A stretch of DNA of 32,684 nucleotides from the IMG/VR virus record IMGVR_UViG_3300009285_005866, positions 1-32,684 of that record; one strand, 5' to 3'. Below the pieces are notes generated by a model. The model did not search any database. It was not told where the DNA came from and saw only the letters and a list, made by a program, of their open reading frames with translations. The stretch comes from a virus. Shown here one piece after another: positions 600 to 29,774 of the stretch; the first letter of the stretch is position 1, and each line of letters opens with the position of its first letter. The position numbers and the translations under genes were made by a program.

Positions 600-605
600 G
601 TTTCC

Positions 606-635
606 ATTGTAGCATGGGCGTGTGGATATCGTCAA
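606..635 (-). promoter_or_regulatory. Sigma70-type promoter for the HNH gene, possibly giving a leaderless mRNA
   Basis: On the minus strand, TTGACG (635-630) and TACAAT (611-606) are separated by 18 nt. With the usual spacing of 6 nt after the -10 box, transcription would begin at about 599, the A of the HNH start codon. An inverted repeat (621-650) straddles the -35 box, as expected of an operator. Confidence 0.6.
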
Positions 636-2628: not shown

Positions 2629-3152
2629 AAATTGAAACGAATATCAACGGAATAAACATCACCTCCCAACGACGGAGCAAAAAGGACGGCGATTTGATGC
2701 CGAACCTTTGGGGTGAGGGTCGCTGGGCAAAGTTCGTTGTTTATTATTTAGAATCAGGGAATGCTTATCGTTCCGCGTTAAAGGCTGGTTTTGGTAAAAC
2801 GTACGCTAAATTTGCCCGGCAAAGGATGCCGGAGCGGGTAAAGCAAGGTTTAATGATGCAATTGGAGAAGCAGGGTGTAACGGAAGGTTTGGTTGCTAAT
2901 CGTATTAAAATGTTGCTCATCGCGAAGAAGCCGGTCTACCGCAACAATAATGTGACAAAGGAAATCGAAAAGGTCAGTGAAATTGATGATGTGGACGCGA
3001 TAGACAAAGGATTGCGCCATGTTTTAGCTATTAGGGGGGACATAAAAAGTCAGGAGGACAAGCCGCAACAGCATTTACATTTACATTTAGATCTCTCTAA
3101 TCTACCCGCGGAACAGCGCATTAAATTCGCGCAGACTGGGGAATTGGAATGA
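2625..3152 (+). CDS. Terminase small subunit (candidate)
   Basis: TerS proteins recognise viral DNA and pass it to the large subunit during packaging. Residues about 38-80 (WAKFVVYYLESGNAYRSALK, then AGFGKTYAKFARQRM) fit the N-terminal helix-turn-helix of TerS, with the usual pattern of an alanine-rich turn and AG before helix three. It continues with a helical oligomerisation region (residues about 80-135) and an alternating His-Leu beta segment (HLHLHLDL) followed by an acidic tail, as in several TerS families. The 175-residue length is normal. It lies one small gene upstream of TerL and starts on an ATGA overlap. I cannot confirm the family without a profile search. Confidence 0.7.
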   Translation: MKIETNINGINITSQRRSKKDGDLMPNLWGEGRWAKFVVYYLESGNAYRSALKAGFGKTYAKFARQRMPERVKQGLMMQLEKQGVTEGLVANRIKMLLIAKKPVYRNNNVTKEIEKVSEIDDVDAIDKGLRHVLAIRGDIKSQEDKPQQHLHLHLDLSNLPAEQRIKFAQTGELE

Positions 3153-3502
3153 AACAAGCTGATTTCACGCAGAGTGTTCTTCGGTTCTTACAGGCTCCGG
3201 ACAATTCATTCCTGTCATGGTTCGGCGACCCAGCCCTGCGGACGGAAGTGGATCGGATGCTGTCGGAGGACTTTCTGGAATGGATTTCTGGTGATGCTCT
3301 GGAAGAAGTGAACCCCCCAATCCGTCTCGCCCAATTTATGGGATATGGGAATCCGCGAGTCCTTGGTTATTTGGGAACGCCACAACTCCGGAAACAATTC
3401 AGTTGGGAAGTTCTGCGCAATTATCGGGTATTTTTAGCGGATGAGGAATTATGGACGACAGTCAGTACGTTAAAGCCCTCAGAGAACACGAAGAAGCCGT
3501 AA
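3149..3502 (+). CDS. Hypothetical protein between TerS and TerL
   Basis: The 117 residues are rich in aromatic residues (FLSWFGDPAL, FLEWISGDAL, FSWEVLRNYRVFL) and probably helical and globular; no family recognised. It starts on an ATGA overlap with TerS. Its last 52 nt overlap the TerL start in another frame, a longer overlap than elsewhere in this operon. It may be a packaging accessory factor by position only. Confidence 0.55.
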   Translation: MKQADFTQSVLRFLQAPDNSFLSWFGDPALRTEVDRMLSEDFLEWISGDALEEVNPPIRLAQFMGYGNPRVLGYLGTPQLRKQFSWEVLRNYRVFLADEELWTTVSTLKPSENTKKP

Positions 3503-5151: not shown

Positions 5152-5157
5152 AATTAA

Positions 5158-5322
5158 ATGAAAAACTGGTTAGTGATACTCATTGGTGTGTTCTTGTTAG
5201 GGGGTTCTGCGGGGGGGCTGGTTTGGGGTTGGCAATACGACCAGAGGAATTTGGGGGCGTCCAGTATACCTGCCCCAACTGCCCCTGATGAATACGTTAC
5301 CATTGAACCGATAGTGAGGTAA
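5158..5322 (+). CDS. Small membrane-anchored protein with short outer tail
   Basis: The 54 residues begin MKNWLVILIGVFLLGG, one membrane segment at about residues 4-24, followed by a short polar, proline-containing tail (IPAPTAPDEYV). This could be an uncleaved signal anchor. No Shine-Dalgarno sequence is seen; the upstream stretch is A/T-rich and the ATG is 7 nt after the TerL stop. The stop overlaps the next ATG (TAATG). A membrane peptide inside a packaging operon is not unusual in phages but its role here is unknown. Confidence 0.6.
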   Translation: MKNWLVILIGVFLLGGSAGGLVWGWQYDQRNLGASSIPAPTAPDEYVTIEPIVR

Positions 5323-5519
5323 TGGTTGCGTTCAAACCGATATGCACAACCCCCCCCGCAGGCGATAATGAGCGGATTGAAAGAATCGTTGCTTGGGCGG
5401 ACCGGGAGCGCAGGGTAAGCAGGGCTGACTTGGTTTGGGGCGTAAGATACCTGTACGAAATCCTAATAATTAAAGAGGGTCTAATTAAAGGCTATGAAAA
5501 AAAAGAGCAGAATCGGTAA
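5322..5519 (+). CDS. Hypothetical small protein
   Basis: The 65 residues contain a likely helical core (NERIERIVAWADRERRVSRA and LVWGVRYLYEILI) and a basic end. No family recognised. It is coupled to the preceding membrane peptide by TAATG and overlaps the next gene by 26 nt. Confidence 0.55.
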   Translation: MVAFKPICTTPPAGDNERIERIVAWADRERRVSRADLVWGVRYLYEILIIKEGLIKGYEKKEQNR

Positions 5520-5697
5520 GGTTACAGAACCGCGGATTCGCTACCGCGGGAGGGTTTACATTGTTTCCAGCGACGATCTCCGTGGTATTACGATGGCCAG
5601 GGCCACTAACCGGACTACTGTCGATATCCAACAGGAAAGTGGCAAGGGGCAGTACGGGACGCTTTTGTTACAGACGGGCGAAATTGAAATCATCTAA
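5494..5697 (+). CDS. Hypothetical small basic beta-rich protein
   Basis: The 67 residues have a basic start (MKKKSRIGKV) then alternating hydrophobic strands (IRYRGRVYIVSSDDL, TVDIQQESG, YGTLLLQTGEIEII), consistent with a small beta-barrel such as an SH3- or OB-like fold. That is a fold guess from pattern only. It begins within the end of the previous gene, after AAAGG at short spacing, and ends 9 nt before the portal. Confidence 0.5.
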   Translation: MKKKSRIGKVTEPRIRYRGRVYIVSSDDLRGITMARATNRTTVDIQQESGKGQYGTLLLQTGEIEII

Positions 5698-5706
5698 AGG
5701 GATCCA

Positions 5707-7629
5707 ATGCCTGAAGTTAAGAGTCCGATAACCGGAGAGCAGCAAACTGAAGTCAAGGTTAGACTGCAATCTAACGAACGGCGTGACGTGGCGAGTCGCG
5801 TGGTCTCGCGGTTTTATGACATGAGAACGACGCGGAACCAATCGTTTTCCTTCTTCAGGAACAGGTCATTCCAGGAGTATGTAGAAGATTCTGTTAAGCG
5901 CATCAATCAGTTTAAGGAGAGGCCCTCCCACAAGAAATGGTGGCAGGCCAACCAAGCAGGTCCGACTACTAGGAATAAATTGATGGGTATTCTTTCCAAA
6001 CTCGCTCAGAGCATGATGGAACCGAGGGTTTGGGCGACGAATGAAACGGATTTCCTGGCCAAAGTCAGGGAACGAGTTCTAAACGTTTTGTTAAAAGCTT
6101 CGGCATATAAGAACAAAGATGACAAAAAACTCATCTGGGAGATGTTTGAGGCCATGGCCAAAGGAACGGTGGTCGGTTTCGAGGGGTGGAGGATCGACAA
6201 GCGGAAAGTTAGGTGGGTTAAAAATCAGAATCCTGAGACCGGCGAGACTACCGTAGAGGAAAGGGAGATTAAATTCTTCAATGACGTTTACGGGGTGCTA
6301 ATCCCCCTGGAGGACATGTATTTTGGGGACATCTTTGTTTCTGACGTGCAGGACATGGATGATTCCGCTTGGCGGCAAGTAGTGAAGTTTGGTTCCTTTC
6401 AAACGGAATTTAGTTATTATCCTGACGCGGATTTGGTCCAACCCAACCGGTCGGCGGTGGGGCAGGACGAAAAAGGGGGATTTTCTTACTACCAGCCGTC
6501 GAACGACATCGAATCGGACGAAGTGGAAATCCTCCGGTATTTTAATAAGGCGACCGACGAGTACGTAATGATCGCGAATGGGATCTGGATCAATTGTCAG
6601 GGGGGTAGCACCGTTCAACCAATTCCGTTCAATCACAAAAAATTGCCGTTCTGGGTCGGCCAGTTCGAATTGATTGATTCGAAGTTTATTTACGGGAAGT
6701 CCCTGGCGGACAAGATGATCGCTACCCAGGATACCAGGGATAAGTTCTTTGACAACATACTGGATCGGTTGACGATGGCTCTACAGGCTCCGATCGTCGT
6801 GAAAGGGTCGGTCAATTTGAGCGAGGGATATTTGGAACCTGACGGTATCGTGGAAATCAAAGATCCCATAGGCAATGAATCGGTGGAGCGGATGGATCTG
6901 AAGGAGCCTGGTCAGGGGAGCATGCAGATCCTGCAGTATTTAGAGAAGGAATTGGAGAATACTTCCATTTCTTCGGAAGTTACCGGTCAGGGCGGTTCCA
7001 CCAACAAGACGGCGACGCAAGTCCAAATTGAGAGGGAAGGCGCTTTGGAATTGGTTTCCTTATTCCTGCGGTTGATGGAGTTTGCCATCCGGGACAAGTA
7101 TCAGTTGCGGCTTAGTAACATCGTCCAGTTTTACACTCTGCCATCCCACAAAGACGACAAGGAGGAGAGATTCAGGAAAGTCGTGCTGCGGGACGAAGTA
7201 ATGTCCAATGGGACAATCGGCAACGTTGAAGTGGAAATCACCCGCTATCCGTCCCAGAAGAACGTTGAAACGAAGGCTAGGTCAGCGCCGACTCCCACCG
7301 AACGCATGGAAGTAACCCCGGAGTTCATCCGGGATTCCGAGGGGGAAGTGTTTATGGTGCCCAGGTCCAGCCTAAAGCAATCAGAGGCCCTCCGGCAGGC
7401 ACAGGAGGCGAGTTTCGCAAAGACTACCATGGCTTTATTCCCTGACATCGTCAACCGCGACGTCCTGTTTGATGATTTCGTTAACAAGTTCCCAGACAAG
7501 GATTCCAGAAGGTTGCGGGCGCCGAAGGGTCAGGGCGCCGTACCAGGAATGGAGGAAGCCAGGGGAGGCGTGGAAGCAAACCCCGGCGAGGCCGTCGTTG
7601 AGCCGACTCTAAGGGAGTTAGTACAGTGA
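5707..7629 (+). CDS. Portal protein
   Basis: The portal forms the dodecameric ring through which TerL pumps DNA and onto which the connector docks. The 640 residues show the layout of large portal proteins of short-tailed phages. There is an N-terminal helical domain with basic and aromatic residues (RNQSFSFFRNRSFQEYV), a central clip and wing region, a stem-like helix (YGKSLADKMIATQDTRDKFFDNILDRL) given here only as a pointer around residues 328-355, and a following QAPIVVKG strand. Next comes the glycine/threonine segment SSEVTGQGGSTNKTATQVQ and a long helix. The acidic, proline-containing C-terminus ends PGEAVVEPTLREL. AAGGG precedes the ATG. It sits after TerL and before scaffold and capsid genes, the canonical order. 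Confidence 0.88.
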   Translation: MPEVKSPITGEQQTEVKVRLQSNERRDVASRVVSRFYDMRTTRNQSFSFFRNRSFQEYVEDSVKRINQFKERPSHKKWWQANQAGPTTRNKLMGILSKLAQSMMEPRVWATNETDFLAKVRERVLNVLLKASAYKNKDDKKLIWEMFEAMAKGTVVGFEGWRIDKRKVRWVKNQNPETGETTVEEREIKFFNDVYGVLIPLEDMYFGDIFVSDVQDMDDSAWRQVVKFGSFQTEFSYYPDADLVQPNRSAVGQDEKGGFSYYQPSNDIESDEVEILRYFNKATDEYVMIANGIWINCQGGSTVQPIPFNHKKLPFWVGQFELIDSKFIYGKSLADKMIATQDTRDKFFDNILDRLTMALQAPIVVKGSVNLSEGYLEPDGIVEIKDPIGNESVERMDLKEPGQGSMQILQYLEKELENTSISSEVTGQGGSTNKTATQVQIEREGALELVSLFLRLMEFAIRDKYQLRLSNIVQFYTLPSHKDDKEERFRKVVLRDEVMSNGTIGNVEVEITRYPSQKNVETKARSAPTPTERMEVTPEFIRDSEGEVFMVPRSSLKQSEALRQAQEASFAKTTMALFPDIVNRDVLFDDFVNKFPDKDSRRLRAPKGQGAVPGMEEARGGVEANPGEAVVEPTLRELVQ

Positions 7630-7958
7630 GGCGGCTCCAGCTGAAGTTGCTGGGTTATCTCGTTTCGAAATTCCTGCCGTTTACCCCGACAGGGATGACC
7701 AGGGACGAAGAGTTGGAGATTCTTTACAACATCCACCAAGTTAAGGGATCCGACAAGTTGTTCCAAGCTCTGATTTCATCGAATATAGCCGGTTATTTTA
7801 ACGTTCCGGAGGGGGAGGAGGAGATGAGGCTCTTGAAGAAAGGAACGGTCATGGGTTACCGGTGGTTCAGAAAGGAAATGGCGGAAGCTAAACGGAATTT
7901 AGAATTAATCAGGGGGAGAAAGGAAAAACAAGATGCGCTATCTAAAGAACAGGATTGA
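7626..7958 (+). CDS. Hypothetical protein downstream of portal
   Basis: The 110 residues start with a GTG overlapping the portal stop (GTGA). The first 20 residues are basic and hydrophobic (LQLKLLGYLVSKFLPF); the rest is helical and charged. An in-frame ATG at codon 24 (7695) is an alternative start. No family recognised. A head-completion or structural accessory role is suggested only by position. Confidence 0.55.
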   Translation: MRRLQLKLLGYLVSKFLPFTPTGMTRDEELEILYNIHQVKGSDKLFQALISSNIAGYFNVPEGEEEMRLLKKGTVMGYRWFRKEMAEAKRNLELIRGRKEKQDALSKEQD

Positions 7959-8340
7959 CGAATTCAAACAGACGAACGTCATCGACGTGGTCCTCACGGT
8001 ACACCCGATCAGCAATCCGAGGGAGTGGGTCAGTAAACCTCTCCGGCCAAACGGTGAAGTGGATGAAGTCAAAGCTCGGGGTTTCCTCGACAAGGACAGA
8101 TCTGAGGGCTTCCGAGTGGTCATCAAACCTGGAGAAACCGTGGCTTTTGGTGAAGGCAGCGAGTTCAATGAGGAGCAGGCCGAATACATCTACCGCACAT
8201 TTGGGTCGCCAGACGTTCCCTTGGGGGAACCGCCGACTTATAACTGGCTGATAGAGGTAGACGAGGATGGCGGCGAGAAGAGGGGTTACGGCAGTTTTTA
8301 TGACAAGTACCGCAAACCCGTCGTCGTCGTCCACCGGTGA
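7933..8340 (+). CDS. Hypothetical protein, last gene of the packaging block
   Basis: The 135 residues are beta-rich: segments such as VIDVVLTVHPIS, FRVVIKPGETVAFGEG, YNWLIEVDEDGG and KPVVVVHR alternate strands with turns, giving a probable small beta-sandwich. It might be a decoration or minor head protein, but I do not recognise it. GGGAGAAAGGA precedes the ATG, a strong ribosome-binding site. It overlaps the previous gene by 26 nt and is followed by the structured gap 8341-8518. Confidence 0.6.
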   Translation: MRYLKNRIDEFKQTNVIDVVLTVHPISNPREWVSKPLRPNGEVDEVKARGFLDKDRSEGFRVVIKPGETVAFGEGSEFNEEQAEYIYRTFGSPDVPLGEPPTYNWLIEVDEDGGEKRGYGSFYDKYRKPVVVVHR

Positions 8341-8366
8341 TCTTTAACAACTAAACGTACAAAGGG

Positions 8367-8453
8367 GCTAGAGTTTGGGGCATCCCGACCCTAGCAGCGA
8401 CTCATCCCTTGTTGTCGCTGTTGGGTCCGGGTGTCGCAAATGCGGCACCTTTT
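8367..8453 (+). terminator. Cluster of hairpins ending in a terminator-like stem before the capsid block
   Basis: The 178-nt gap contains three successive stems: GCTAG 8367-8371 with CTAGC 8391-8395, CAGCGAC 8395-8401 with GTCGCTG 8414-8420 (seven perfect pairs), and GGTGTCGC 8430-8437 with GCGGCACC 8442-8449 (eight pairs, one G-T) followed by TTTT. The last could terminate or attenuate transcription before the scaffold gene. A further short stem GTGGT/ACCAC lies near 8474-8488. No new promoter is evident after it, so partial read-through or mRNA processing seems likely. Confidence 0.5.
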
Positions 8454-8518
8454 GTGTAACGAGTTCCCACGGTGGTTTGGTCACACCACTCAAATAAAGG
8501 ACTCAAAAAGGAATTTGT

Positions 8519-9283
8519 ATGGCACAAGAGAATGAGGAGTTAAATGGCGCTCCCCCGGTTGAAGAACCGGTAGCGCCGTCGGACGCTCCTCCCGACACAG
8601 AAAAACCGCCGGTTTCACCTCCCGAGAAGCCAGCGGAACCAAATAAGCCTGATACTCCCCCGGTTGGACCCGCGCCTGACAAGGTGATGGTTGACAGGGT
8701 AGAGTTGGAGAGACTCCAGAAGGACGCCGCGTTGACGGAAACTTACCGGTCGGACCTTCTCAACGTTAAGGGGAAGAAGCGGAAATCTGAACTTTTCGCT
8801 GATATCTCCGTTGAACAAGAGAAGCCACCCAATCCTGACGTTCCGCCGGCGGACGTTGCCACTCCTACCCCGCATATTTTGGTAGATTACCTATCAAAAC
8901 GCGCGGACGTAACTGACAAGTATGAGCAGGAGATTGCCCAGCTTTCTGACGAGGACGCGGAGTTCGCAAAACGTCGCCTTCAAGTGGAGGAGGAAATCCT
9001 GAAGAAGGATATGTCCAAATCCTCTAGACCAGTCGGACGGAAACGGGTAGAGCAGATGTTTGAGGATGTCCTCGGCACCATCAGGTCAAGGCGCAAACCT
9101 TCGCCGGGTGCGGTTGAGACGCCTCCTGACTTAGGCTCTACTCAGACCATCCGAAAGGTCGCAAAGGGGTCAGCTCCAATTTCGGACAGGGCCAGGGAAA
9201 TCCAGCCCTACACGAAAGATACCAAAGGACGCATTCTTCCTTTGGAAAGTATCCAGGCCATGATTGATCAGGGAATACTCTAA
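8519..9283 (+). CDS. Scaffolding-like protein
   Basis: Scaffolding proteins line the inside of the prohead during assembly and leave before packaging. The 254 residues fit: an acidic, proline-rich disordered N-terminus (PPVEEPVAPSDAPPDTEKPP), a long charged helical or coiled-coil part (residues about 120-190) and a basic C-terminal section (GRKRVEQMF, IRSRRK), the kind of tail that contacts capsid protein. It lies directly before the capsid genes. AAAAGGAA precedes the ATG. The assignment rests on composition and position, as scaffolds are poorly conserved. Confidence 0.7.
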   Translation: MAQENEELNGAPPVEEPVAPSDAPPDTEKPPVSPPEKPAEPNKPDTPPVGPAPDKVMVDRVELERLQKDAALTETYRSDLLNVKGKKRKSELFADISVEQEKPPNPDVPPADVATPTPHILVDYLSKRADVTDKYEQEIAQLSDEDAEFAKRRLQVEEEILKKDMSKSSRPVGRKRVEQMFEDVLGTIRSRRKPSPGAVETPPDLGSTQTIRKVAKGSAPISDRAREIQPYTKDTKGRILPLESIQAMIDQGIL

Positions 9284-9317
9284 TCTCTAACAACAAGGGA
9301 GAAAAGGATGAAATTAT

Positions 9318-9866
9318 ATGGCCTTTGCCTATAAGACTAACCTCTTGGGCAATTCGCATCCTGTTCTCCGCAAGGTGATCGCTAATAATTCGATCGCCGT
9401 TCAACCAGGAGACGCAGTAGACTGCTATAACGCAGGCTTCGCTCGTCTCGCTACGGCTGGCAATGCCATTTTCGGCATCGTCCACGCCGTGGTTGACCGC
9501 TATGGTCGCGGTGTTCTTCCTGAAGAAGACAGCCGGGTTGAAGCGGGTGATTGGACGGTAGCGTCGGGTGTGGTAACAGTCGGTAGCGACAATACCACGG
9601 ACGATCAGATCGCCCTCCTCTGCGACGTCTCCCAGTATTCAATTTACTCGGCAGACGTTACGGGGACTATTGGTACGACCAATAACTCCGACAAGGTCGG
9701 AGCGAATATCGACGTTACCGACGAGGATGACCTTGCAGAAACTTCCGCTGTTCGTACGATCAGCGGTCAGTTCTACGGTTGGGGTACCGATCCAGACGAT
9801 TCCGGCAACATTCTCTGTTCTATCAGAGAATCCGAAATCTTCGGCGGCACTCCTAACTACGGATAA
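9318..9866 (+). CDS. Probable capsid decoration or minor head protein
   Basis: The 182 residues are almost all beta strands and turns (VIANNSIAVQPGDAVDCYN, LATAGNAIFGIV, GDWTVASGVVTVG, QIALLCDVSQYSIY). A beta-barrel protein located between scaffold and major capsid protein fits head decoration proteins that cement the HK97-type shell. No catalytic motif is seen. GGAGAAAAGG lies upstream; another ATG in a different frame at 9307 gives only eight codons and is ignored. Confidence 0.6.
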   Translation: MAFAYKTNLLGNSHPVLRKVIANNSIAVQPGDAVDCYNAGFARLATAGNAIFGIVHAVVDRYGRGVLPEEDSRVEAGDWTVASGVVTVGSDNTTDDQIALLCDVSQYSIYSADVTGTIGTTNNSDKVGANIDVTDEDDLAETSAVRTISGQFYGWGTDPDDSGNILCSIRESEIFGGTPNYG

Positions 9867-9901
9867 TTAACGGGCTAACTACCCAAACATAAGGAGCATA
9901 C

Positions 9902-10897
9902 ATGGCTAGTACATCTGCCATTGAAACACGCGCTCGGTTTGGCGATTTAGCTCGTTCAGGAGCAATTGCCAGATTCAAGGACGTTTTCGACCAAGCCCAG
10001 ACCACTTATGATGGTATGGCGGAGTTGCAGCGCATCTTCAAGGTTGAAAGCACAGGAGACAGTGAGATTCGAGATGTCGGTGTTGCTGGGCTGAACCTGC
10101 TCAGTGAGACGGCCGAAGGCGCGGCGTACAATCAAGACGCTAATCTCGTAACTTACCAGACAGACTATAGCGCCCAGAAACTTACTGGTTCAACAGTCGT
10201 AACGGAAGAGCGGATTGCTGACAGCGAGTATAAAGACAAACTTGATGATTTTCGCCACTTGGCCGTCTCCGGAAAGCGTACCAAGGTTAAATATGGTATG
10301 AACGTCATCAATTCGGGATTCGTCACTACGGCGGTAACCAACGGTTTCACCGTTTACCGCTACGCTGACGCTGTTCCTTTGTTCTCGACTTTGCATCCCC
10401 GCAAAGATGGTGGTTCTACTCAGAGTAACGCTTCCGCCACGGGCATCACCCTGTCGGAGTCGAACTTGGAGACGGGCCGCCTCGCTTTAGTCAAGCAACT
10501 CACTGATCGCGGTTTGCCGATGGAGTTTATGGGTCGCGTGATTGTGGTCGTGCCGGATGACCTCGCCAAAACGGGCGTCATTTTGGCCGATTCCGAACTC
10601 CGCCCATCCACGGCGAACAACGACATCAACTTCTATAATGGCGTTATCGTGGACGTGTTGGTTTCCAAGTGGCTTAATGCCACCGGTTCCAACGGTTCCA
10701 CGACCGCCTGGTACCTGATCGACACCAACTACAGCAAACTGAAGTTGTACGTCCGGCAGGAACCGGAGTTCTTCGAAGAACGGGAGAATGGCACTAGGAA
10801 CCACATCTTTGGCGTCTCGCAACGTCTCGCGGCTGGTCACTCTGACTGGCGCGGTACTTGGGGGAGCAAGGGTGACGGTGCTGCTTACAGCTCATAA
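9902..10897 (+). CDS. Major capsid protein (HK97 fold, Mu gpT-like)
   Basis: The 331-residue product would form the icosahedral shell. The N-terminal helical arm (RFGDLARSGAIARFKDVFD), the central GMNVINSGFVTT helix followed by DAVPLFSTLHP, and RVIVVVPDDLAKTGVILAD are typical of Mu-like and related HK97-fold capsid proteins, in which a F-x-x-xHP loop is followed by the axial domain. No prohead protease gene is nearby, in line with podoviruses that use unprocessed capsid proteins. A strong AAGGAG precedes the ATG. Confidence 0.88.
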   Translation: MASTSAIETRARFGDLARSGAIARFKDVFDQAQTTYDGMAELQRIFKVESTGDSEIRDVGVAGLNLLSETAEGAAYNQDANLVTYQTDYSAQKLTGSTVVTEERIADSEYKDKLDDFRHLAVSGKRTKVKYGMNVINSGFVTTAVTNGFTVYRYADAVPLFSTLHPRKDGGSTQSNASATGITLSESNLETGRLALVKQLTDRGLPMEFMGRVIVVVPDDLAKTGVILADSELRPSTANNDINFYNGVIVDVLVSKWLNATGSNGSTTAWYLIDTNYSKLKLYVRQEPEFFEERENGTRNHIFGVSQRLAAGHSDWRGTWGSKGDGAAYSS

Positions 10898-10918
10898 TTA
10901 ACTTCCTTACTATTCTAT

Positions 10919-11182
10919 ATGGCCTACTTGCGCGTCCACAATCCGGACGATAAGGACAAGCTCTTGGTCGCGGGTGGTCAGGAAGTGGTGATCCCCAGTC
11001 GAAAGTCGGTGGTAGTCGAATCCTCAATCGGGCAGATCCTCAAGGAGATGTCTGCCGCTTTGGAGGTCGTCTCAGCTTCTGACGAGGAGTACGCGGTGTT
11101 TATCAACCCGCCGAAACCGTCTAAAGCTGCGAAAACACCGAAGAAGAAACTGGGCAAAGCCAAGAAAGGAGCGAAACAATGA
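10919..11182 (+). CDS. Small protein with lysine-rich tail after the capsid gene
   Basis: The 87 residues split into a compact beta-rich part (residues 1-60, YLRVHNPDDKDKLLVAGGQE, VVIPSRKSVVVE) and a Lys/Ala/Pro tail (PKPSKAAKTPKKKLGKAKK). The tail resembles histone-H1-like or ribosomal tails and would bind DNA or the capsid interior. Family not recognised. No Shine-Dalgarno sequence is present; the ATG follows an A/T-rich stretch. The stop overlaps the next start. Confidence 0.55.
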   Translation: MAYLRVHNPDDKDKLLVAGGQEVVIPSRKSVVVESSIGQILKEMSAALEVVSASDEEYAVFINPPKPSKAAKTPKKKLGKAKKGAKQ

Positions 11183-16383: not shown

Positions 16384-16587
16384 ATGCTTTCAAACAAGGA
16401 ACGAATGCAATGGTACGCTCTCGGCGTGGCGACAATAGTGCTGCTGATCGTCCTCGGCATGACGATTCTCTCCGACCAGGGCTATCTCAATGACACATTT
16501 ATATTTTTTTGCTCGGTGCTGGGTATGGTTTTGGGAGCGGGGATCTACAAGTCAATAAAAGGAGATAAGGACAATGGCAAAACGTAA
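16384..16587 (+). CDS. Two-segment small membrane protein, holin candidate
   Basis: The 67 residues contain two hydrophobic helices (about 12-31 and 39-57) with a short polar link (SDQGYLND) and a basic C-terminus (YKSIKGDKDNGK), the layout of class II holins. Holins open the inner membrane to release endolysin. It overlaps the downstream peptidase gene by 14 nt, the classical holin-endolysin order. No family recognised. Confidence 0.55.
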   Translation: MLSNKERMQWYALGVATIVLLIVLGMTILSDQGYLNDTFIFFCSVLGMVLGAGIYKSIKGDKDNGKT

Positions 16588-17653
16588 ACTCAAAGGCAAT
16601 CTGAAATTCGGACTGGTTCCGCTGAAGAAGGACAAACACGACTTCCCTCTTGGCGCGGTATTTCCACAGATGGATATTAAGGATATCCTGCCGAAATTCG
16701 AGCTTCCCCGCATCTCTCCTCTGCACCAGAAAGAATCCGACTACTGCTCGGCCTACGGCACGGATCAGATGTCGCGTTTCCAGGAGGACGAGGAATTTGA
16801 ACCAAGTTGGGGTTTCGCGGTCTCAAAACTCCTCTCCGGCGACCCAGACGAGTGGGGTCAGAACCTTCGTGACGCTTTCAAGCGGCCGGTGAAGTACGGT
16901 TCGCTTCGTAAAGCTGACTCTCCAATGAGCCTCGAAACTCATGACGCGACATTCTTGCGGCATATCAAGAACTGGCCGAAGGATCTGTTCGATAAGGCCA
17001 AGCCGTTTAAGAAACAATCCTACTTCTTTATTGACGGCCGCTATGATCCGTTCGATAACATCTGCGTGGCGCTCTACCAGTTCCGTGATCAAGAACGCGC
17101 AGTCGGCTCGGGTGTGCTGTGGGACTGGCCGATGGATAATCCGAATATCCCGAGCAGAGTACCGACCAGCGGGTTTGGTCATTTTATCGTTTATACTGGA
17201 TATGACCGGGAGAAGGACTGCCTTGTCCTCTTGAACTCCTATGGTCCCGACGTGGGAGATAAAGGTTATTTCTATATTCCGCGAAGCGTAGTGAATGCCT
17301 TCGCCGGGAAGTATGGCGCGGGAATGTTCGTCGATCTTCCTGCTGCTACGGCTAAAATGATAATTAACGTTCACAAAAAGGAGTCAAATATGGCAGAAGT
17401 CCGAAGTGATTTTATGAACCTCAACCTTAAAGATGTTGCCAAAGGTGCTCTCGTTGCTGTCATCGTGGCGGTGCTTGGTTACAGCAAGGAACTCATTGAG
17501 GTAAATGGTCTGGCGATAACCGCGGATCAATTCAGGGAGATCCTCAGCATTGCCCTGACCGCCGGTGTTGGTTATCTGGTAAAGAATCTGTTTGAAGACA
17601 ACACTGGGAAGAACAAAATCATAAGTTCTGTGGGCGGTCTTTTTAAGAAGTAG
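16574..17653 (+). CDS. Papain-like (C1) cysteine peptidase fused to a holin-like domain
   Basis: Residues about 45-260 carry the C1 peptidase signature: Gln52 and catalytic Cys58 in SDYCSAYG, His203 in GFGHFIVYTGY and Asn221 in LLNSYGP with G-D-K-G-Y-F-Y-I-P after it. Papain-like peptidases occur in phages as lysins or processing enzymes. Residues 273-359 form a separate domain with two hydrophobic helices (GALVAVIVAVLGYSKE; ILSIALTAGVGYLVKNLF) resembling phage holins. The two halves are joined in frame. AAAGGAGA precedes the ATG at 16574. An internal AAAAAGGAG plus ATG at 17390 suggests the second domain is also made alone. No signal peptide is present at the N-terminus. Confidence 0.75.
   Translation: MAKRKLKGNLKFGLVPLKKDKHDFPLGAVFPQMDIKDILPKFELPRISPLHQKESDYCSAYGTDQMSRFQEDEEFEPSWGFAVSKLLSGDPDEWGQNLRDAFKRPVKYGSLRKADSPMSLETHDATFLRHIKNWPKDLFDKAKPFKKQSYFFIDGRYDPFDNICVALYQFRDQERAVGSGVLWDWPMDNPNIPSRVPTSGFGHFIVYTGYDREKDCLVLLNSYGPDVGDKGYFYIPRSVVNAFAGKYGAGMFVDLPAATAKMIINVHKKESNMAEVRSDFMNLNLKDVAKGALVAVIVAVLGYSKELIEVNGLAITADQFREILSIALTAGVGYLVKNLFEDNTGKNKIISSVGGLFKK
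17390..17653 (+). CDS. Internal in-frame gene: holin-like protein made from the peptidase ORF
   Basis: The ATG at 17390 is codon 273 of the peptidase ORF. It is preceded by AAAAAGGAGTCAAAT, a near-ideal ribosome-binding site at good spacing, stronger than most in this window. The 87-residue product has a polar N-terminus (MAEVRSDFMNLNLKD) and two hydrophobic helices, a complete holin-like protein. Either the stop of an upstream gene was lost, fusing two genes while both starts remain, or both forms are used. No frame break separates the two parts. Confidence 0.6.
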   Translation: MAEVRSDFMNLNLKDVAKGALVAVIVAVLGYSKELIEVNGLAITADQFREILSIALTAGVGYLVKNLFEDNTGKNKIISSVGGLFKK

Positions 17654-22427: not shown

Positions 22428-23759
22428 ATGGCCTTTCAACCAGGCGGTGGAACTACAGAGGAATACGAAGCAGCGAAAGCTGCTGGGATTAACGTACAGG
22501 AGTCGGGGTGGCTTGACAGGTTTAACGCAATGGGCGCTACTGGCGATGATGTTGGGAATGCCGTTGATGAAATCAGGGGTGGCAATGACATTTTTAGTTC
22601 CCCGGACGCCTTCAAGAATTTTTATAATGGATTAGGTGTCGCCAGTAGCGGGTTCGATACAGATTTCGACGTAATTTCGGACAACATCAGGACCGATGAG
22701 GAACGTCGCCTGAAGAACCGTAGGGAGGAAATTACTGGTATCTACGGTTCAGAAAAAGATCGGGTATTGGAGGAGACTAGGCAGATTCAGTCGGGTGAGA
22801 GGACGATAGGTGGTCAACGTGGCGGGGCTGGTCAATCAGGTCTTGGTTTCTCTTCAGTGACGGAAGCTAGGATAACCCTTGAAAAAGAGAGGTCTGATAA
22901 AGCGATCAAAGAACTTACGAAACTTGAAGAGCAATCACTAGCCAGGGCAGATACAGAGAGTGCCGATAGAATAAGGGCGTCTATCAATGATGAAATAGAC
23001 AGGCGTTCAAAACTTCGTCAGCAGGAATTTGATAACACGATGAAGTTACTTGGGTTCGGAATAGATTATAAGAGAGAACAACGTGCTGAACGCAATGAGG
23101 AATTAGACAAGGCGGTGAAACTGTTCGGCATCGCCAAGGACATACCCGAGGGGGAGAGCCTTGACATCGGGGGTGGGATAACGATATTCGGGGTAAAAAG
23201 AACTGACCCATTCTTCAACTCCACCAACCTCGTCACAATCATGGGTAAGATTCCGATGGGTCAGGAGTTTACGTTGGAGGATCCCAATACTGGGCAAATT
23301 TGGACGTTAACAGGTATCGCCCAACCCTCGGAGAATTTGAAACAATACACAGCAACGGATGACAGAGGCACGGTTCGGATTATCAATTTCGATCCCACTA
23401 CCGGTGAAATTGTCTCGGTCGCGGAACTTCCCGGGGCTGGCAAAACGAAGAGTAGTACGACCATTAACATCGGCGCGCAATCAGGAGCTGGATTGACGAT
23501 GGCAGACTTTAACAAGCAAGGCTACCGTCGGGTTCCAAAAGAGGATGGCGGGTTTGACTTCAAGGATCCGAAGGGCAAAGTGATTGACGTGGTGGAGGCA
23601 GCCAAGGCCACCGGTGTTCCTGTTCCCGTTCTGTTGGCCGGAAGTACCGACCCAGATGATCTGGACATCATTAGGAGCGCCAATCCCAATCAGGATGAGG
23701 GTTTCAACCTTGATTCAATCGACATCGAAGCACTAATCGCCGCGCCTGACGAGGAATAA
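22428..23759 (+). CDS. Internal virion or ejection protein (candidate)
   Basis: The 443 residues begin with a small domain (TEEYEAAKAAGINVQESGWL). They continue as a long charged coiled-coil (about residues 85-230, DEERRLKNRREEITGIYGSE; KRSKLRQ-type helices) and end with beta segments and an acidic tail. Long helical proteins placed before a giant internal protein are typical of podovirus ejection complexes that form a channel across the envelope. No catalytic motif is recognised. No Shine-Dalgarno sequence is seen upstream; the ATG follows TAATTAATAATATTAAC. The stop overlaps the next ATG (TAATG). Confidence 0.55.
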   Translation: MAFQPGGGTTEEYEAAKAAGINVQESGWLDRFNAMGATGDDVGNAVDEIRGGNDIFSSPDAFKNFYNGLGVASSGFDTDFDVISDNIRTDEERRLKNRREEITGIYGSEKDRVLEETRQIQSGERTIGGQRGGAGQSGLGFSSVTEARITLEKERSDKAIKELTKLEEQSLARADTESADRIRASINDEIDRRSKLRQQEFDNTMKLLGFGIDYKREQRAERNEELDKAVKLFGIAKDIPEGESLDIGGGITIFGVKRTDPFFNSTNLVTIMGKIPMGQEFTLEDPNTGQIWTLTGIAQPSENLKQYTATDDRGTVRIINFDPTTGEIVSVAELPGAGKTKSSTTINIGAQSGAGLTMADFNKQGYRRVPKEDGGFDFKDPKGKVIDVVEAAKATGVPVPVLLAGSTDPDDLDIIRSANPNQDEGFNLDSIDIEALIAAPDEE

Positions 23760-26700
23760 TGCCGTCACCATTCTCATTACAACGGGGGGCTTTCGATCCG
23801 CTTATCCCAATCCAGGGAGGAGCGTCTTCGACTAACCGCACGACTACCGCGACCACGATTGATCCCCTACTGCCGATTGCTAGAAAGAGAACTAGCGGTG
23901 GTGGTGGAGGCGCGGGTGCCGCTCCTTTAAGGCCCAATCCTTTCCGGCCGATTGATCCGTTGAGAATAATCTCGGGCGGTCCTAACATGGCGACGAGGAC
24001 TTCAACCCCTGCCGTCTCAGATACGAGTTTCACGCCGGTGGATGCTGCGAGGGGCGTTAGAGCGTTTGGGAGATTTGGAATACAAGTTGCTAGAGACCCC
24101 AAACGCGCGTATCACGTGGGGGCGAAGGCTCTGGAATCAGGACTGTTATCAACAAGTTCTACCTTGGAGACCACCACCGCCGTTATGCTAAGGAAATTGG
24201 TTCCATTTAAAAAGGAATTTCCTGCGGCACAGTACCTCTCTGACAAACTGATGGCTACCGCTAAAGTAGATAGGGAACTCTCAAAGTATGGCCTTATGAT
24301 TGAAGAACCGGTCAATTGGATCGAGGGTTTGAATGATCCCTTTTACGTCATCCAGAAAGTTCTACAGAATGTCCCAAACACCGCCGCGGCCTTGGCCGTC
24401 GGGGGTCTCGGATTTGCTGTTGGGGGTCCGGTGGGGGCGCGGATAGGTCTTTATACTGTCTCCGCTGGCCTGGAGGGCGGCAACGCTTATCAGGACGCCA
24501 TAGACCACGGGGCTGATGAAAGGACGGCAGAGAAAGTCATGATTGGTGTCGGCTTAATCAACGGGGTGATTGAAATGCTCCCAGCTGACAATCTGCTAAG
24601 GCAGGCATTCGGTAAGGGCACTGTTCGTTCTACAGTCGGCGGATACCTAACCGAAGCGTTCGTTAGCGCCCCGCTTAAGCAGGGGTTCCTGGAAGGTGGT
24701 ACCGAAGCTGTCCAGGAAGTCGTGGGGAATGCCTTCGCCAGGGCTTATGATGAAAACAGGGATCTGTTCGCTAACGTTGGCCAGTCAGCCTTCTTTGGTA
24801 CGTTGTCTGGTCTTGGATCAAGCGTCGCGTTAAGCGCGGTCCAAAGTTCAGTCTCAGTTACGAAGAGCGTCAGGGATACAATAAAAGCTGGGTTCATCAA
24901 CGATCTCGTCAATAAGGGATATCCATTGGAAGAGGCCCAAGGATATGCCGAACAAGGCGGATTCATCGGTCAATTTAAACCCAAACAGATTGACAATTTG
25001 ACCAAAGACGAAATGATCAAGGCGATTGACTATGTCCGGTTGAAGAAATCCTATGACCAGACGATGGAGGATAGTATCGGTCATCTGGCCGAGAAGTTCG
25101 GAATTAAATCGAAGTCACTGGCGACGGTGGCGAATCAATTTGAGAGATTGGTGGAGGAGACCAAAACACGCGACATATCGGGACGTGTGTTAAAGACTGA
25201 TGCCCAACGGGCGGGTTTCGAAACCGCTATGGTAAGGGATTCCCTCTTCTCCTCCATTTCCAAAGCCAAAACCTCTGGTCAGTCTTTTGATGAGTGGGTG
25301 AAGGGTCAGGAGGGACAAACGATTGATGATATTGATTATCTTGGTCTAAGAGACAAGGCAACGAAAGATTTTGTTCAAAATGAAACAGGGAAAAGAACTC
25401 TGCCTGACAATGTAGACTGGGAAAATCTGCAAGGTCATCGTGAGCACGGATCTCCCCTTACAGACAGAACCTACGAATGGTTAGACAATTATTTAAGGGA
25501 AAGGAAAATACAAAATCCTACAGATGATATTGTAATGGAACTTGAATATTTTGTTCCAGACAGACCGATTAAAGTATACCGTGGCGGTGAAATGAACAAA
25601 AATGTTGGTGGAGTTAAAGTTAACTCTTGGACACACAATCTAGAAGTTGCCAATAAATTTGCAGGAAAATTGGGGAAAGTATACGAGGTAACCATAGAAC
25701 CAAAGGATATTCTGTTTGATTCAAAAATGGTTGACCCAAATTATGACATCCCTACTTTTAGCAGTTGGGAGGATGAGGTATTAGTTTGGAGTCGTGTTAA
25801 AGGAAATGAAATCAAAACCCGCTCCCAATTAAAAGCAGAGTGGGATAAAGCAAGCGGGGAACAGTTTATAAACCGTGACGAAGCGGGTTTCATTAAACTT
25901 CCCACCAAAGAAGAAATGGTTGGAGCATGGAGACGGATTACGGGGGTCGCAAAGAGTCTGCTACCCACAAAAGTAATACCAATCACCCCTTCTGAACGTG
26001 CTGGGACAGCGACACCTGCGGGCAAAACGGTCGCGCAGGTGTTCCGTACTGATAAATTAAACTTGACTGAAGAACAGATTGACCAGATAGAGAAGCGAAG
26101 GGAAGTTCTCGGTCTAACCACCCGGGGCGTTCGGTCCTTCACTGAGATGCAGGAAGTCGCCCAGGAATTGGGGGCTGACGTGGAAACTTTATTAAAGGAG
26201 ATAATTACCAACCGCATCACTGACTCTGAAGTGATCGCTCTAAAAGAAACGATCAACGCCAATGCCCAATTTATCGCCCAGGCTGAGGAGCAAATAATAA
26301 ATGACCCCTCTTACGAAAGACTTTTGCGACCAAAAATCGGTCAGGCGTCAATTCAAATTGACAAATCTATTACGAAAGTAATTAAAGGCGGGACTGAGGC
26401 TGGTCGAACCGTGGTGGCTTTCAAATTAATAGCCAGGAATACTCTAGACCCAATTTTCTGGTTTAAGAAAGCTAAAGAGCAACTTGGTGGCGCAAGACCA
26501 CTTACTGCTGAGATGCAGGCGGCGATTCTTGATCTGGTTAAAAAGCATGATATCAACGGACTTGCCAATTTCGTGTCAATGTTGAGGGAGGCTTCATTCG
26601 CTGAGCAGGCCATTACGCTATGGAAGGCTGGACTTCTTACTGCTTCTACTACCCACCTCGCTAACCTCGGTGGCAACACTACGATGGCTAGTTTAATGAC

Positions 26701-28387
26701 CGCCTCAGACGTGTCGGCAACGGTGTTTGACGTGATCGCGTCGGTTTTTACCGGTCAACGGACCACTACGATTACGCCGAGTACCGTGTATGCGAAGGCG
26801 AGGGGATTGGCGATAGGAGTTCCAAAAGCCTGGGAATACCTAAAAACAGGAATTTATCCTGAGGATGTGCTGAAGAAATATGACATGCGGCAAGTCCGAT
26901 TTAAGAGTAAAATCCTTCAAGGTTATACACAAGCAGTGTTTAGGTCGTTAGGGGCAGAGGATATCATGTTTCGTATGGCAGCAATGGCGGAGTCATTCCA
27001 AAAACAGGCCATTGTGATGGTAATGAACGAAGGTCTCCATGGTCAGGATGCGAAGACTAGGATCGCCGATCTGCTAACAAACCCGACGAACGAAATGACG
27101 GCGGTCGCAATGGAAGCTGCTGAGTATGCCACGTTTCAAAGTAAGAACATCATGTCCTCTGCTATCTCGGCTGCTAAGTCTGTTGTAAGAAGTAAAAGCG
27201 AAATTGCCGCTGCGGGGGTAGAAGTAATTGCTCCATTCACCACCACGCCTACGAATATCGCCGCTAGGATCATTGACATTTCGCCCGCCGGATTCGTAAC
27301 TACTCTAATTAAAACGGCCAGGAACATCGCCGGTAAGAAAGGAGTGACTACTACTCAAAGACAATTAGTTGAAGGATTAGGACGCGCGACAACGGGTACA
27401 GTCGTGATCGCAATTGGCGCATTTCTTGCGGCAAGGGGTTTAATGACTGGAAACTTACCAGATGACGAACAGGAGCGACGGGAATGGGAAAGGGAGAGAA
27501 AACTTCCTAATGCCATCCTTATCGGAGGCAGGTGGTATCAATTAAATAGGGTCTCTCCGATTGGGAACCTTCTTGCCTTGGGGGCAGAGTTTCATGAACT
27601 TGGTGAAGAGAATATAGGTTCAAAGAGGTATGCCAAAACCGGTCTCGCCGCCTTAGAGGGATTGTCCGAACAAACTTTCTTAAAAGGGATATCGGGTGCA
27701 GTTGGGGCCATCTTTGAACCTGAGAGGAAGGGTGAGTATTTCTTAGAGGGTACTGTTAGTTCCGTTATTCCTACTGTCATTGGTAGGATCGCAACAACGA
27801 TTGACCCGCGGTCCAGGATAAGGGAGGGGGTTCTAGACGCGGTGATGGCTAAAATTCCAGGATTAACTGGAAAATTAGCAATAAAGAGAGATCTCTTTGG
27901 GGATCCAATTAACGTCGCTGGTGGGAAATACAACCTCGTGGATCCATTTCAGAGTAAAAAAGCCAGGAATGACGCTATAATAAAGGAAATCCAAAAAGTT
28001 GATGCTAACATTGGTATGCCCTCTCAAACAATTTCAGGTATAAAACTTACCGCTCATGAATACTCGATATACCAGAAAGTCCAGGGGAGATTGTTGGAGG
28101 CCTCCTTTACACAGTTGGTAGATAGTCCGCAGTATAAGAAAGCAAAACCCAGTGATCGAAAAGAGGCGTTTGAGAACATTCAAACAGAATTGCGGTCCAA
28201 TCTGAATGACCAATTATTCCCGGCGTTAATGGTTAAGCGGTATGGTTTAGATACCAAAACTAATCCCGAATTATTGCGGGTCGTGTTAGAGGGATTGTCA
28301 GATATACAACGGTTTAAAAACGCTTCAGTGGAGGAGCAGGGTAAAATGATAATCAAAGTAATCGATGCAAGTAATGTGGGTCATTAA
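23759..28387 (+). CDS. Giant polyvalent internal virion protein with an ADP-ribosyltransferase-like domain
   Basis: 1542 residues, probably packaged and ejected with the DNA. Residues 1-80 are a disordered, proline/glycine-rich start. Residues about 195-260 contain a glycine-rich helix pair (AAALAVGGLGFAVGGPVGAR; GNAYQDAIDHGADERTAEKV) common in such proteins. Residues about 540-700 resemble an R-S-E class ADP-ribosyltransferase: Arg608 in VYRGG, Ser623-x-Thr625 in NSWTHNLEVANKFAG, and Glu671-x-Glu673 in SSWEDEVLVW. The C-terminal half, with PFTTTPTNIAARIIDISPAG and GTVVIAIGAFLAARGLMTGN followed by a WYQLNRVSPIGNLLALGAE block, matches my memory of the LPD38-type large polyvalent protein-associated domain. 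The ART-coding stretch is conspicuously A/T-rich. The protein could modify a host target at entry. Confidence 0.7.
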   Translation: MPSPFSLQRGAFDPLIPIQGGASSTNRTTTATTIDPLLPIARKRTSGGGGGAGAAPLRPNPFRPIDPLRIISGGPNMATRTSTPAVSDTSFTPVDAARGVRAFGRFGIQVARDPKRAYHVGAKALESGLLSTSSTLETTTAVMLRKLVPFKKEFPAAQYLSDKLMATAKVDRELSKYGLMIEEPVNWIEGLNDPFYVIQKVLQNVPNTAAALAVGGLGFAVGGPVGARIGLYTVSAGLEGGNAYQDAIDHGADERTAEKVMIGVGLINGVIEMLPADNLLRQAFGKGTVRSTVGGYLTEAFVSAPLKQGFLEGGTEAVQEVVGNAFARAYDENRDLFANVGQSAFFGTLSGLGSSVALSAVQSSVSVTKSVRDTIKAGFINDLVNKGYPLEEAQGYAEQGGFIGQFKPKQIDNLTKDEMIKAIDYVRLKKSYDQTMEDSIGHLAEKFGIKSKSLATVANQFERLVEETKTRDISGRVLKTDAQRAGFETAMVRDSLFSSISKAKTSGQSFDEWVKGQEGQTIDDIDYLGLRDKATKDFVQNETGKRTLPDNVDWENLQGHREHGSPLTDRTYEWLDNYLRERKIQNPTDDIVMELEYFVPDRPIKVYRGGEMNKNVGGVKVNSWTHNLEVANKFAGKLGKVYEVTIEPKDILFDSKMVDPNYDIPTFSSWEDEVLVWSRVKGNEIKTRSQLKAEWDKASGEQFINRDEAGFIKLPTKEEMVGAWRRITGVAKSLLPTKVIPITPSERAGTATPAGKTVAQVFRTDKLNLTEEQIDQIEKRREVLGLTTRGVRSFTEMQEVAQELGADVETLLKEIITNRITDSEVIALKETINANAQFIAQAEEQIINDPSYERLLRPKIGQASIQIDKSITKVIKGGTEAGRTVVAFKLIARNTLDPIFWFKKAKEQLGGARPLTAEMQAAILDLVKKHDINGLANFVSMLREASFAEQAITLWKAGLLTASTTHLANLGGNTTMASLMTASDVSATVFDVIASVFTGQRTTTITPSTVYAKARGLAIGVPKAWEYLKTGIYPEDVLKKYDMRQVRFKSKILQGYTQAVFRSLGAEDIMFRMAAMAESFQKQAIVMVMNEGLHGQDAKTRIADLLTNPTNEMTAVAMEAAEYATFQSKNIMSSAISAAKSVVRSKSEIAAAGVEVIAPFTTTPTNIAARIIDISPAGFVTTLIKTARNIAGKKGVTTTQRQLVEGLGRATTGTVVIAIGAFLAARGLMTGNLPDDEQERREWERERKLPNAILIGGRWYQLNRVSPIGNLLALGAEFHELGEENIGSKRYAKTGLAALEGLSEQTFLKGISGAVGAIFEPERKGEYFLEGTVSSVIPTVIGRIATTIDPRSRIREGVLDAVMAKIPGLTGKLAIKRDLFGDPINVAGGKYNLVDPFQSKKARNDAIIKEIQKVDANIGMPSQTISGIKLTAHEYSIYQKVQGRLLEASFTQLVDSPQYKKAKPSDRKEAFENIQTELRSNLNDQLFPALMVKRYGLDTKTNPELLRVVLEGLSDIQRFKNASVEEQGKMIIKVIDASNVGH

Positions 28388-28598: not shown

Positions 28599-29774
28599 AT
28601 GAAAGTCCTCATCCTTGTCAATGGTCCCCTCGATACCAGCCCGTTTAACGAATCCCGGGACTTTCTCCATACCAACGGCCTGGACTGCGAATTTGAGTTC
28701 GTCACCATTCCCGCTGACATTTACCCACTCGTGGACTATGGCGGGGACGCGATGTGCGTGGACTATAACCGAATTGAGCAACCCGCTGCGGGATACGACA
28801 ATAAGTTTAATTTCCTGTTTTTTGATCCGAAGCCTTATGGGACCAAGATTCTCTCCTCCGCCAAGGTCGGCGCTGCGGGGGCGCGTCAATACGGCCAGAT
28901 CGTTTCTCCGACAGTTTACTCGGAGCCGGTACATGAACTCTGCCATCTCTTCTATAATTTTTTGGGTTTACCCGATAAGGTGCATGAAATAATTAAGGAA
29001 GAGAGATCGGATGCAGATAAGGCGTTCGGCGGTAAAAAGAAAGCGTTTGGTCGAATAGTGCGCGAATTGGCACCATTACTGGCACAAATCGTCAGCGAAC
29101 TCGGTCCTCTCTTACCACAGGAGACCATGAAAATGAGTCCACGATTCTTACTCCGTAGGAGAATCCCTATTTATAAAGCCGGATTTAATTCGCTTCGGAC
29201 TTCCCCGATTACTGGAGCGAGGTTTGTACACGAAGCGCAGGACTACCGCGCGTCATACGAGCCGGTCTATATGCCGGAGGACGGCACAGTAACGAATAAG
29301 TGGTCAGCGCTTGGCGGGTACGGACAACTCATAGAAACCAAAGAATATACCTTCACGATCTGGCATCTCTCCAAACGTCTGAAGACCGGCAACGTTCTCA
29401 AGGGAGACCAGATCGCGGCAACCGGCAACAGTGGGATGCTCACGAGTGGACCACACATGCACCTTGAAGCTGTTTATAGGATAACCAATAATAAAATCGA
29501 CCCGGAGGGTATCCGCTGGGACGAGGAAAGGGCAAACGATATGTTGATAAAAAAACAAGGTTCACCGGAATTTTCCTATCTCTCTTCAAAAAAGGTAAGA
29601 CATCCGATGAGCGAGAGGGCCTGGGTCGAATATTTTGATTCGGCGGCGCCAGACGTGGAAGCCACGGTGGAGAGCTACAATAATTTTCTAACCGGCAAAG
29701 CCATATTCTTTACCGCAAATTTCGGAGCGACCGAAGTCCCAGAGAATGTCTGGGAAGCGGAACCGGCTGAATAG
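28599..29774 (+). CDS. Dual-domain metallopeptidase: HEXXH zincin plus M23 (LytM) lysin
   Basis: Residues 1-135 form a domain with the zincin motif HELCH (112-116), where two His and a Glu would hold and use zinc. A helical linker follows. Residues about 200-300 are an M23 endopeptidase: His211 and Asp215 in FVHEAQDY, His256 in FTIWHLSK, TGNSG and the closing GPHMHLE (His286, His288). M23 enzymes cut peptidoglycan cross-bridges, so this is a probable endolysin or virion lysin. The function of the N-terminal domain is unknown; it may be a second peptidase. No signal peptide is present. It follows a small membrane gene, as a holin-lysin pair would. GTGAGCG is a weak ribosome-binding region. Confidence 0.8.
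   Translation: MKVLILVNGPLDTSPFNESRDFLHTNGLDCEFEFVTIPADIYPLVDYGGDAMCVDYNRIEQPAAGYDNKFNFLFFDPKPYGTKILSSAKVGAAGARQYGQIVSPTVYSEPVHELCHLFYNFLGLPDKVHEIIKEERSDADKAFGGKKKAFGRIVRELAPLLAQIVSELGPLLPQETMKMSPRFLLRRRIPIYKAGFNSLRTSPITGARFVHEAQDYRASYEPVYMPEDGTVTNKWSALGGYGQLIETKEYTFTIWHLSKRLKTGNVLKGDQIAATGNSGMLTSGPHMHLEAVYRITNNKIDPEGIRWDEERANDMLIKKQGSPEFSYLSSKKVRHPMSERAWVEYFDSAAPDVEATVESYNNFLTGKAIFFTANFGATEVPENVWEAEPAE

Follow-up and report, generated by a model that had tools for sequence, protein, structure and literature searches.

Phage ADP-ribosyltransferases (ARTs) have been described in several settings. In phage T4, Alt is packaged and injected (PMC5512222), and ModA and ModB are small separate proteins. 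PMC9503650 reports that many Alt/VIP2 ARTs are fused to MuF head proteins and that ARTs occur in 3% of siphoviruses and podoviruses. The ART-PolyVal domain (PF18760), found in large phage proteins, has an H-Y-D active site (PMC5512222), and recombinational variability has been suggested for kinase-bearing polyvalent proteins (PMC5512222). Here, we analysed IMG/VR virus record IMGVR_UViG_3300009285_005866, positions 1 to 32,684 (this whole stretch of 32,684 nucleotides is called the window), in which a giant gene for a protein of 1542 amino acids (aa) contains an R-S-E ART-like module between two conserved DNA ends. Constant ends of about 60 bp on the 5' side and about 40 bp on the 3' side bracket different cores in 20 large viral open reading frames (ORFs), and cores with no detectable similarity to one another occur in host proteins that are homologous. 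The window locus is probably best read as an exchangeable in-frame cassette that carries R-S-E ART-like cargo in a putative virion protein.

The window core has the same order of R, S-x-T and E-x-E sites as ModA and ModB and matches a profile of the Mod family, but lies inside an internal-virion-type protein, within the putative exchangeable cassette. The window protein is presumed to be carried in the virion, as Alt is. Unlike ART-PolyVal, which occurs between the same ends in other carriers, the window core is of the R-S-E type and has no PF18760 match. Polymorphic toxin cassette exchange and the variability of polyvalent proteins likewise combine a constant framework with changed effector domains, and a stand-alone cassette-like ORF was also found here (L056). 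In contrast to both, the present cassette has two sides that are constant as DNA. In most carriers it lies internally and in frame, and its ends are common to different cores that belong to unlike host proteins. The features of the window locus are as follows.

23759..28387, plus strand: host gene for the 1542-aa giant protein, the C-terminal part of which resembles internal virion proteins
25250..25309, plus strand: 5' conserved end, residues 498-517, SSISKAKTSGQSFDEWVKGQ, from DNA identity in 20 carriers
25310..25810, plus strand: AT-rich variable core, R-S-E ADP-ribosyltransferase-like module, from motifs, relative, profile and composition
25580..25582, plus strand: Arg608 (VYRGG, residues 606-610), R of the R-S-E motif
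25625..25633, plus strand: Ser623-Trp-Thr625 (SWT, residues 623-625)
25769..25777, plus strand: Glu671-Asp-Glu673 (EDE, E-x-E motif, residues 671-673), Glu673 conserved and 671 an Asp in the relative L029
25811..25849, plus strand: 3' conserved end, residues 685-697, IKTRSQLKAEWDK, from DNA identity in 20 carriers

The cassette was discovered through the giant protein of locus L002, found in the first search for relatives, which shares two stretches around the window module; L003 and L004 showed similar ends around other cores. Codon-degenerate patterns matched 17 stretches of viral contigs for the 5' end and seven for the 3' end, and all seven stretches with the exact 3' end (five distinct phages) hold the 5' end too. 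Relaxed patterns matched 29 and 50 stretches, which added L037, L045, L066 and L077 as carriers of both ends. The remaining stretches were earlier carriers, other phage proteins, L055 (a contig cut within the cassette) and the diverged L056, and 3' ends without a detected 5' end were found in L060, L065, L072 and L078. After removal of duplicates (L009, L012, L013, L014, L023, L025 and L038), there were 20 distinct carriers of both ends including the window, the other 19 being from 14 metagenome ids.

The ends, about 60 bp before and about 40 bp after the module, are highly conserved DNA that lies in frame around the different cores. Mean pairwise DNA identity per 6 nt among the 20 carriers was 0.51-0.98 across the 5' end (-30 to +29) and 0.30-0.39 in the bins adjoining it outside; across the 3' end (-36 to -1) it was 0.67-0.97, with 0.42-0.49 in two bins at the edges and 0.25-0.38 further out. 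A frame-blind scan placed both ends in one frame in 20/20 carriers, with sharp borders, and the reversed-sequence control gave 0 matches (718 kb scanned). The initial annotation had suggested insertion of a foreign cassette; that both ends recur in 19 further contigs supports and much extends this suggestion. It had placed the module at 25330-25870; a module is indeed located there, but the true unit is wider, running from 25250 to 25849 with the two conserved ends. Titles and abstract starts of open-licence literature gave no report of such cassette ends and no R-S-E ART in an internal virion protein.

In genome contigs, the exact 5' pattern was found in three stretches, two of them without a cassette and the third in a contig of a Candidatus Woesebacteria metagenome-assembled genome (MAG) that shares its ORF with virus contig L020. 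Among 379 genomes of the phylum of this MAG, the 5' end at no more than one mismatch occurred in one, as did a weak relative of the terminase-like protein. The two ends were also considered as repeats of each other. As a direct repeat they were alike at 19/42 positions, but 100/5000 shuffles were as good with a self-chosen consensus, and no such repeat is claimed; as an inverted repeat the likeness was 17 positions. L015 and L023 are stretches of a single contig, in which a cassette comes directly after a ParB-like module that ends in KSQLTDIYNQP, so modules can stand in tandem, and in L011 an IYRAIP-type module follows it.

Exchange of cores was indicated by host proteins with homologous flanks. 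The C-terminal flanks of L002, L019 and L037 are homologous (L002/L019 42% over 774 columns, L002/L037 30% over 947, L019/L037 32% over 807), and their cores have no mutual BLAST similarity at E 1e-3. The same was found for L018/L024 (flanks 55% over 772) and L015/L022 (64% over 279). The window and L019 have a common N-terminal flank (33% over 211, E 8e-29), with an R-S-E ART-like core in the one and a ParB-like core in the other. Conversely, the related cores of L002/L010 and of L017/L037 are in hosts without flank similarity, some of these flanks being cut by locus ends. The same DNA ends were thus found around different cores, in homologous as well as in unlike host genes. Core G+C was below that of the host ORF in 17/20 carriers (mean -0.061, Wilcoxon p 8e-5), the cores of L010, L017 and L024 being no AT-richer than their host ORFs. 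We read this pattern as apparent effector-module exchange by recombination, previously only suggested for polyvalent proteins.

A similar pattern could arise during metagenome assembly, if flanks of one phage were joined to cores of another at short shared repeats. Two points count for this explanation: the carriers come from metagenome contigs, and the cassette ends are about as long as an assembly k-mer. However, both ends are in one frame and within one long ORF in all 20 carriers, and the repeats themselves must exist beforehand. Furthermore, L008/L013 and L020/L025 (L025 being a GenBank contig) agree over flank and core in separate records, and L009/L011 agree over the 5' flank and core only, where L009 ends. 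An assembly artefact is thus considered very improbable.

To distinguish conservation of the ends as DNA from conservation as protein, codon use was compared at residues on which carriers agree. In 16 carriers the same codon was used for the agreeing residue in 1238/1581 pairs at the 5' end (78%) and 787/994 at the 3' end (79%), against nulls resampled from each gene's own codon use of 0.414 and 0.391. When the set was thinned to one carrier per metagenome id and host family (14 carriers), sharing was 714/977 at the 5' end (13 usable) and 655/798 at the 3' end, with nulls of 0.398 and 0.388. Among carriers with homologous flanks, four pairs were compared: codon sharing was 0.39, 0.47, 0.34 and 0.27 in the flanks and 0.96, 0.77, 0.87 and 0.92 in the ends. 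The 3' end DNA also occurs in L060 (about 578-613, plus strand), where it closes an ORF but is read in a different frame, and alone in L065 (about 768-803, minus strand), about 0.76 kb downstream of the end of a ParB-like frame; both cases are suggestive only, and L065 counts little because it may be a broken cassette.

These results bear on the alternative that the ends are conserved as protein only, as terminal helices, a linker or a processing site under selection in virion proteins and inherited with the cores, their DNA likeness being incidental. Consistent with that alternative, the end helices are the best-predicted part of the structure model of carrier L020, the stand-alone ORF of L056 keeps the end peptides and hardly the DNA, and by eye several of six PolyVal ARTs from isolated phages differ in their terminal segments at the sites that correspond to the cassette ends. 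Codon sharing that is far above the codon-usage nulls, and higher than in the diverged flanks belonging to those genes, argues against it, as does the 3' end DNA of L060 in another frame. We consider protein-only conservation unlikely.

If the cassette is exchanged as proposed, co-infecting phages would swap cores when their constant ends undergo homologous recombination; in length, these ends seem sufficient for a phage annealing recombinase. The ends would preserve the reading frame and, as terminal helices, could act as a standard socket between domains. The enzyme would travel inside the particle, be ejected together with the phage DNA as infection begins, and could then modify a host protein ahead of phage gene expression. 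A more far-reaching interpretation, which we put forward only tentatively, is a dedicated mobility system, in which the standard DNA ends would be recombination sites or element ends of a phage pool of in-frame effector cassettes. Such cassettes might pass from one ejected virion protein to another in unrelated phages, thereby re-arming entry weapons, and might also occur by themselves as single-cassette genes.

The assignment of the window core was based on motifs, one relative and a profile comparison. Translation of the ORF confirmed VYRGG, SWT and EDE at the residues previously claimed (R608, S623/T625 and E671/E673). The G+C count claimed for 25501-25560 was exactly 17, and the stretch was found to be A/T-rich unlike its flanks, as had been proposed, with 37.6% G+C in the core vs 48.6% in the rest of the ORF; 0/102 equal-sized flank windows were as low as the core. 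A stricter form of the motif, written post hoc after seeing the sequence, was found in 0/2000 shuffles of the window protein and in 2/1554 ORFs (at least 100 aa, fetched loci). One of these is the window ORF and the other comes from the eight Mod-family ARTs among the loci, so the stricter form is not sensitive.

The relative is L029, found at E 3.1e-7 among 379 genomes from the phylum to which the L025 genome belongs, four of which match the window module at E up to 0.01, with only G248 (L029) convincing. L029 retains R608, S623, W624, T625 and E673-V-L and has Asp at position 671. Loss of Arg608, Ser623 or Glu673 among homologues had been named beforehand as evidence against an ART; all three are kept in this one relative. 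Because Asp replaces Glu671 there, Glu673 is the catalytic candidate. The E-x-E motif would suggest arginine as the putative target. The relative itself (G248:C34) is a 620-aa ORF with, by eye, LexA-like and DNA methyltransferase first parts and an R-S-E ART-like C-terminus. Other candidate relatives were rejected: the alignments of L031 and L032 were over unlike proteins, L030 was without an ORF of at least 150 aa carrying a YR[GA] motif, and Achromobacter phage rows (E 5) were taken as chance, with poor alignment and a gene annotated as peptidase M15.

In HHalign, the alignment of window and L029 matched eight T4 Mod-family proteins with a probability of 85.3% and the three sites in register, whereas 30 column shuffles gave at most 1.36% and the reversed alignment 0.12%. 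As single sequences against the Mod family, the window core gave 27% and the other 15 cassette cores at most 0.87% each. The core thus shows both ordered R-S-E motifs conserved in a relative (one relative, with Asp at 671) and profile similarity to an established family. The profile search against ART families that the initial annotation had proposed was therefore positive for the Mod family by HHalign and negative for the curated libraries, and its R-S-E ART reading is upheld by sequence profile (L029 and the Mod family), not by structure. The resemblance of the window core to an R-S-E ART-like domain of the ModA/ModB kind is well supported at the sequence level, and we consider it likely that the core is an R-S-E ADP-ribosyltransferase.

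Several observations weigh against the reading of an exchangeable cassette with R-S-E ART-like cargo. On the cargo side, searches of Pfam, NCBIfam, PHROGs and PDB with the module matched no ART family, AlphaFold2 on the single-sequence module (no alignment) gave a mean predicted local distance difference test score (pLDDT) of 35.3 and no usable model, and HHalign covered the Mod family alone among ART families, so that no ranking as closest family can be drawn from it. The loose motif R..SxT..ExE at similar spacing appeared in 818/2000 shuffles of the window protein and, being this common, is weak evidence alone. There is a single convincing homologue, in which position 671 is not Glu, and scans of viral contigs, phages and plasmids for the core gave only the shared ends and chance-level rows. 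On the cassette side, besides the metagenomic origin of the carriers, the searches yielded no close relative of the window gene in which the cassette is empty or of another kind, and no recombinase was linked to the cassette ends. In L056 (2812-3261, minus strand), a stand-alone 149-aa ORF consists of one cassette with a SILKAKASGMSFDEW start, a SQLKAEWDNAE end and an unassigned core; its end peptides are kept on largely other DNA, so protein-level selection on the ends exists too.

The missing model and curated match, the chance frequency of the loose motif and the residue at 671 would also fit a window module that is a catalytically dead or structural ART-like domain, or a chance motif in another fold. 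This was judged improbable given the Mod profile match with three sites in register and clean controls, and the conservation of the sites in L029 in a quite different protein context. The window/L029 profile found no match among PDB sequences, and neither this profile nor the L029 domain found one in viral contigs. The sole plasmid row was from Rhizobium (E 0.5), and weak PHROG rows carried no function in that database. PF18760 gave no row for the whole window protein or the module at an E limit of 10, a negative limited by the HMMER filters, which drop most rows above E 0.1.

Among the 20 carriers, ART-PolyVal was the commonest cargo between the cassette ends. PF18760 was found at E <0.01 in seven carriers (L004, L008, L009/L011, L016, L017, L020 and L037), below the curated cut-off in L004, L008 and L017, and in L016 above it as a fragment and below it in the whole protein. 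L024, L045, L066 and L077 were grouped with the PolyVal-type ART by alignment or eye alone: L045 and L066 were placed without a Pfam scan, L066 is without the YHG start, L024 has no Pfam row and L077 none in the cassette part of its ORF. An IYRASP-type core is shared by L002 and L010 (52% alike over 60 residues) and is ART-like by eye, a label that conflicts with the match of the L002 core to phrog_2579 (ParB C-terminal domain, E 2.1e-10). L015 has a ParB-like core at E 0.0074, which is below the cut-off, and that of L019 was called ParB-like by eye alone; L021 has a GNAT core, with one of its models above cut-off. The cores of L003, L018 and L022 had no convincing family match in profile searches. 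The L077 cassette is carried by a 2734-aa ORF (2739-10940, minus strand) with Eco57I/N6 methylase and SNF2-type helicase domains.

A structure was predicted for the sister cassette of L020 (ART-PolyVal core) with AlphaFold2 and 11 alignment rows (pLDDT 76.7, predicted template modelling score 0.72). The two end helices were best predicted, at about 95 and 92-93, although it is also in these helices that the alignment varies least. Matches to PDB all stayed short of E 0.001; the best solved match was a cyanophage A4 pre-ejectosome chain (PDB 9k3a, chain B; Foldseek E 1.3e-3, probability 1.00), with a VIA Z of 9.6 and a root-mean-square deviation of 4.9 over 170 residues. Further matches were PARP and other ART domains at Z of about 6, where Z under 8 may mean little. 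Against BFVD, the model matched PolyVal ARTs with E down to 2.8e-10. The predicted structure supports ART-type cargo and a likeness to an ejection-apparatus domain for the cassette family rather than for the window core, the A4 chain resembling the PolyVal-type sister. The A4 structure is cited in PMC12810830. The terminal segments that isolated-phage PolyVal ARTs carry at the corresponding sites suggest that the ends may have come from a domain of this type and later been taken over by other cores.

For the host protein, phrog_6651 (internal virion protein) matches residues 1207-1481 at E 4.6e-16. In tblastn, the window protein matched 15 phage records with E down to 2e-23; the best is annotated hypothetical, and at the matching position 11/15 bear the annotation internal virion protein or internal core protein, three of these 11 as protein D. 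The C-terminal region thus agrees with the internal virion protein D / T7 gp16-like ejection protein family. The window contig encodes terminase-like, portal, major head and M23-peptidase genes, and its portal matches the SU10 portal family. These matches bear out the earlier description of an internal protein of a podovirus. Given the resemblance of the host protein to internal virion proteins, its packaging into the virion and ejection into the host cell are probable. Viral contigs contained no match to the whole window protein, and PDB gave no sequence match at E up to 1.

By the polyvalent-protein criteria of Iyer et al. 2017, the window protein has 1542 aa and a single effector-like core, and a Pfam-type domain scan gave no large-polyvalent-associated (LPD) domain row for it (P0001). 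Among the carriers, LPD38 is present in L022, and methylase and helicase domains are present in L077. If the window protein counts as polyvalent, it would bring an R-S-E enzyme into a class from which this type is said to be absent. Phage effectors delivered at entry are hard to find, since their hosts have often not been cultured and their domains diverge rapidly. Should the constant ends be markers of effector cargo, they would provide a sequence tag for fishing new effectors without homology (compare L003, L018 and L022), and with defined DNA ends the cassette recombination of polyvalent proteins becomes testable.

Three other window genes were noted. The ORF at 16574-17653 (plus strand) has a papain-like peptidase match (PF00112, E 0.0096, below cut-off) and a hydrophobic C-terminal segment. 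Downstream of the giant gene, 28599-29774 (plus strand) encodes an M23 peptidase domain (PF01551, E 2.7e-9), the N-terminal part having a HELCH zinc-peptidase-like motif. Near the contig end, 258-641 (minus strand) encodes an HNH endonuclease (phrog_2255, E 1.2e-7).
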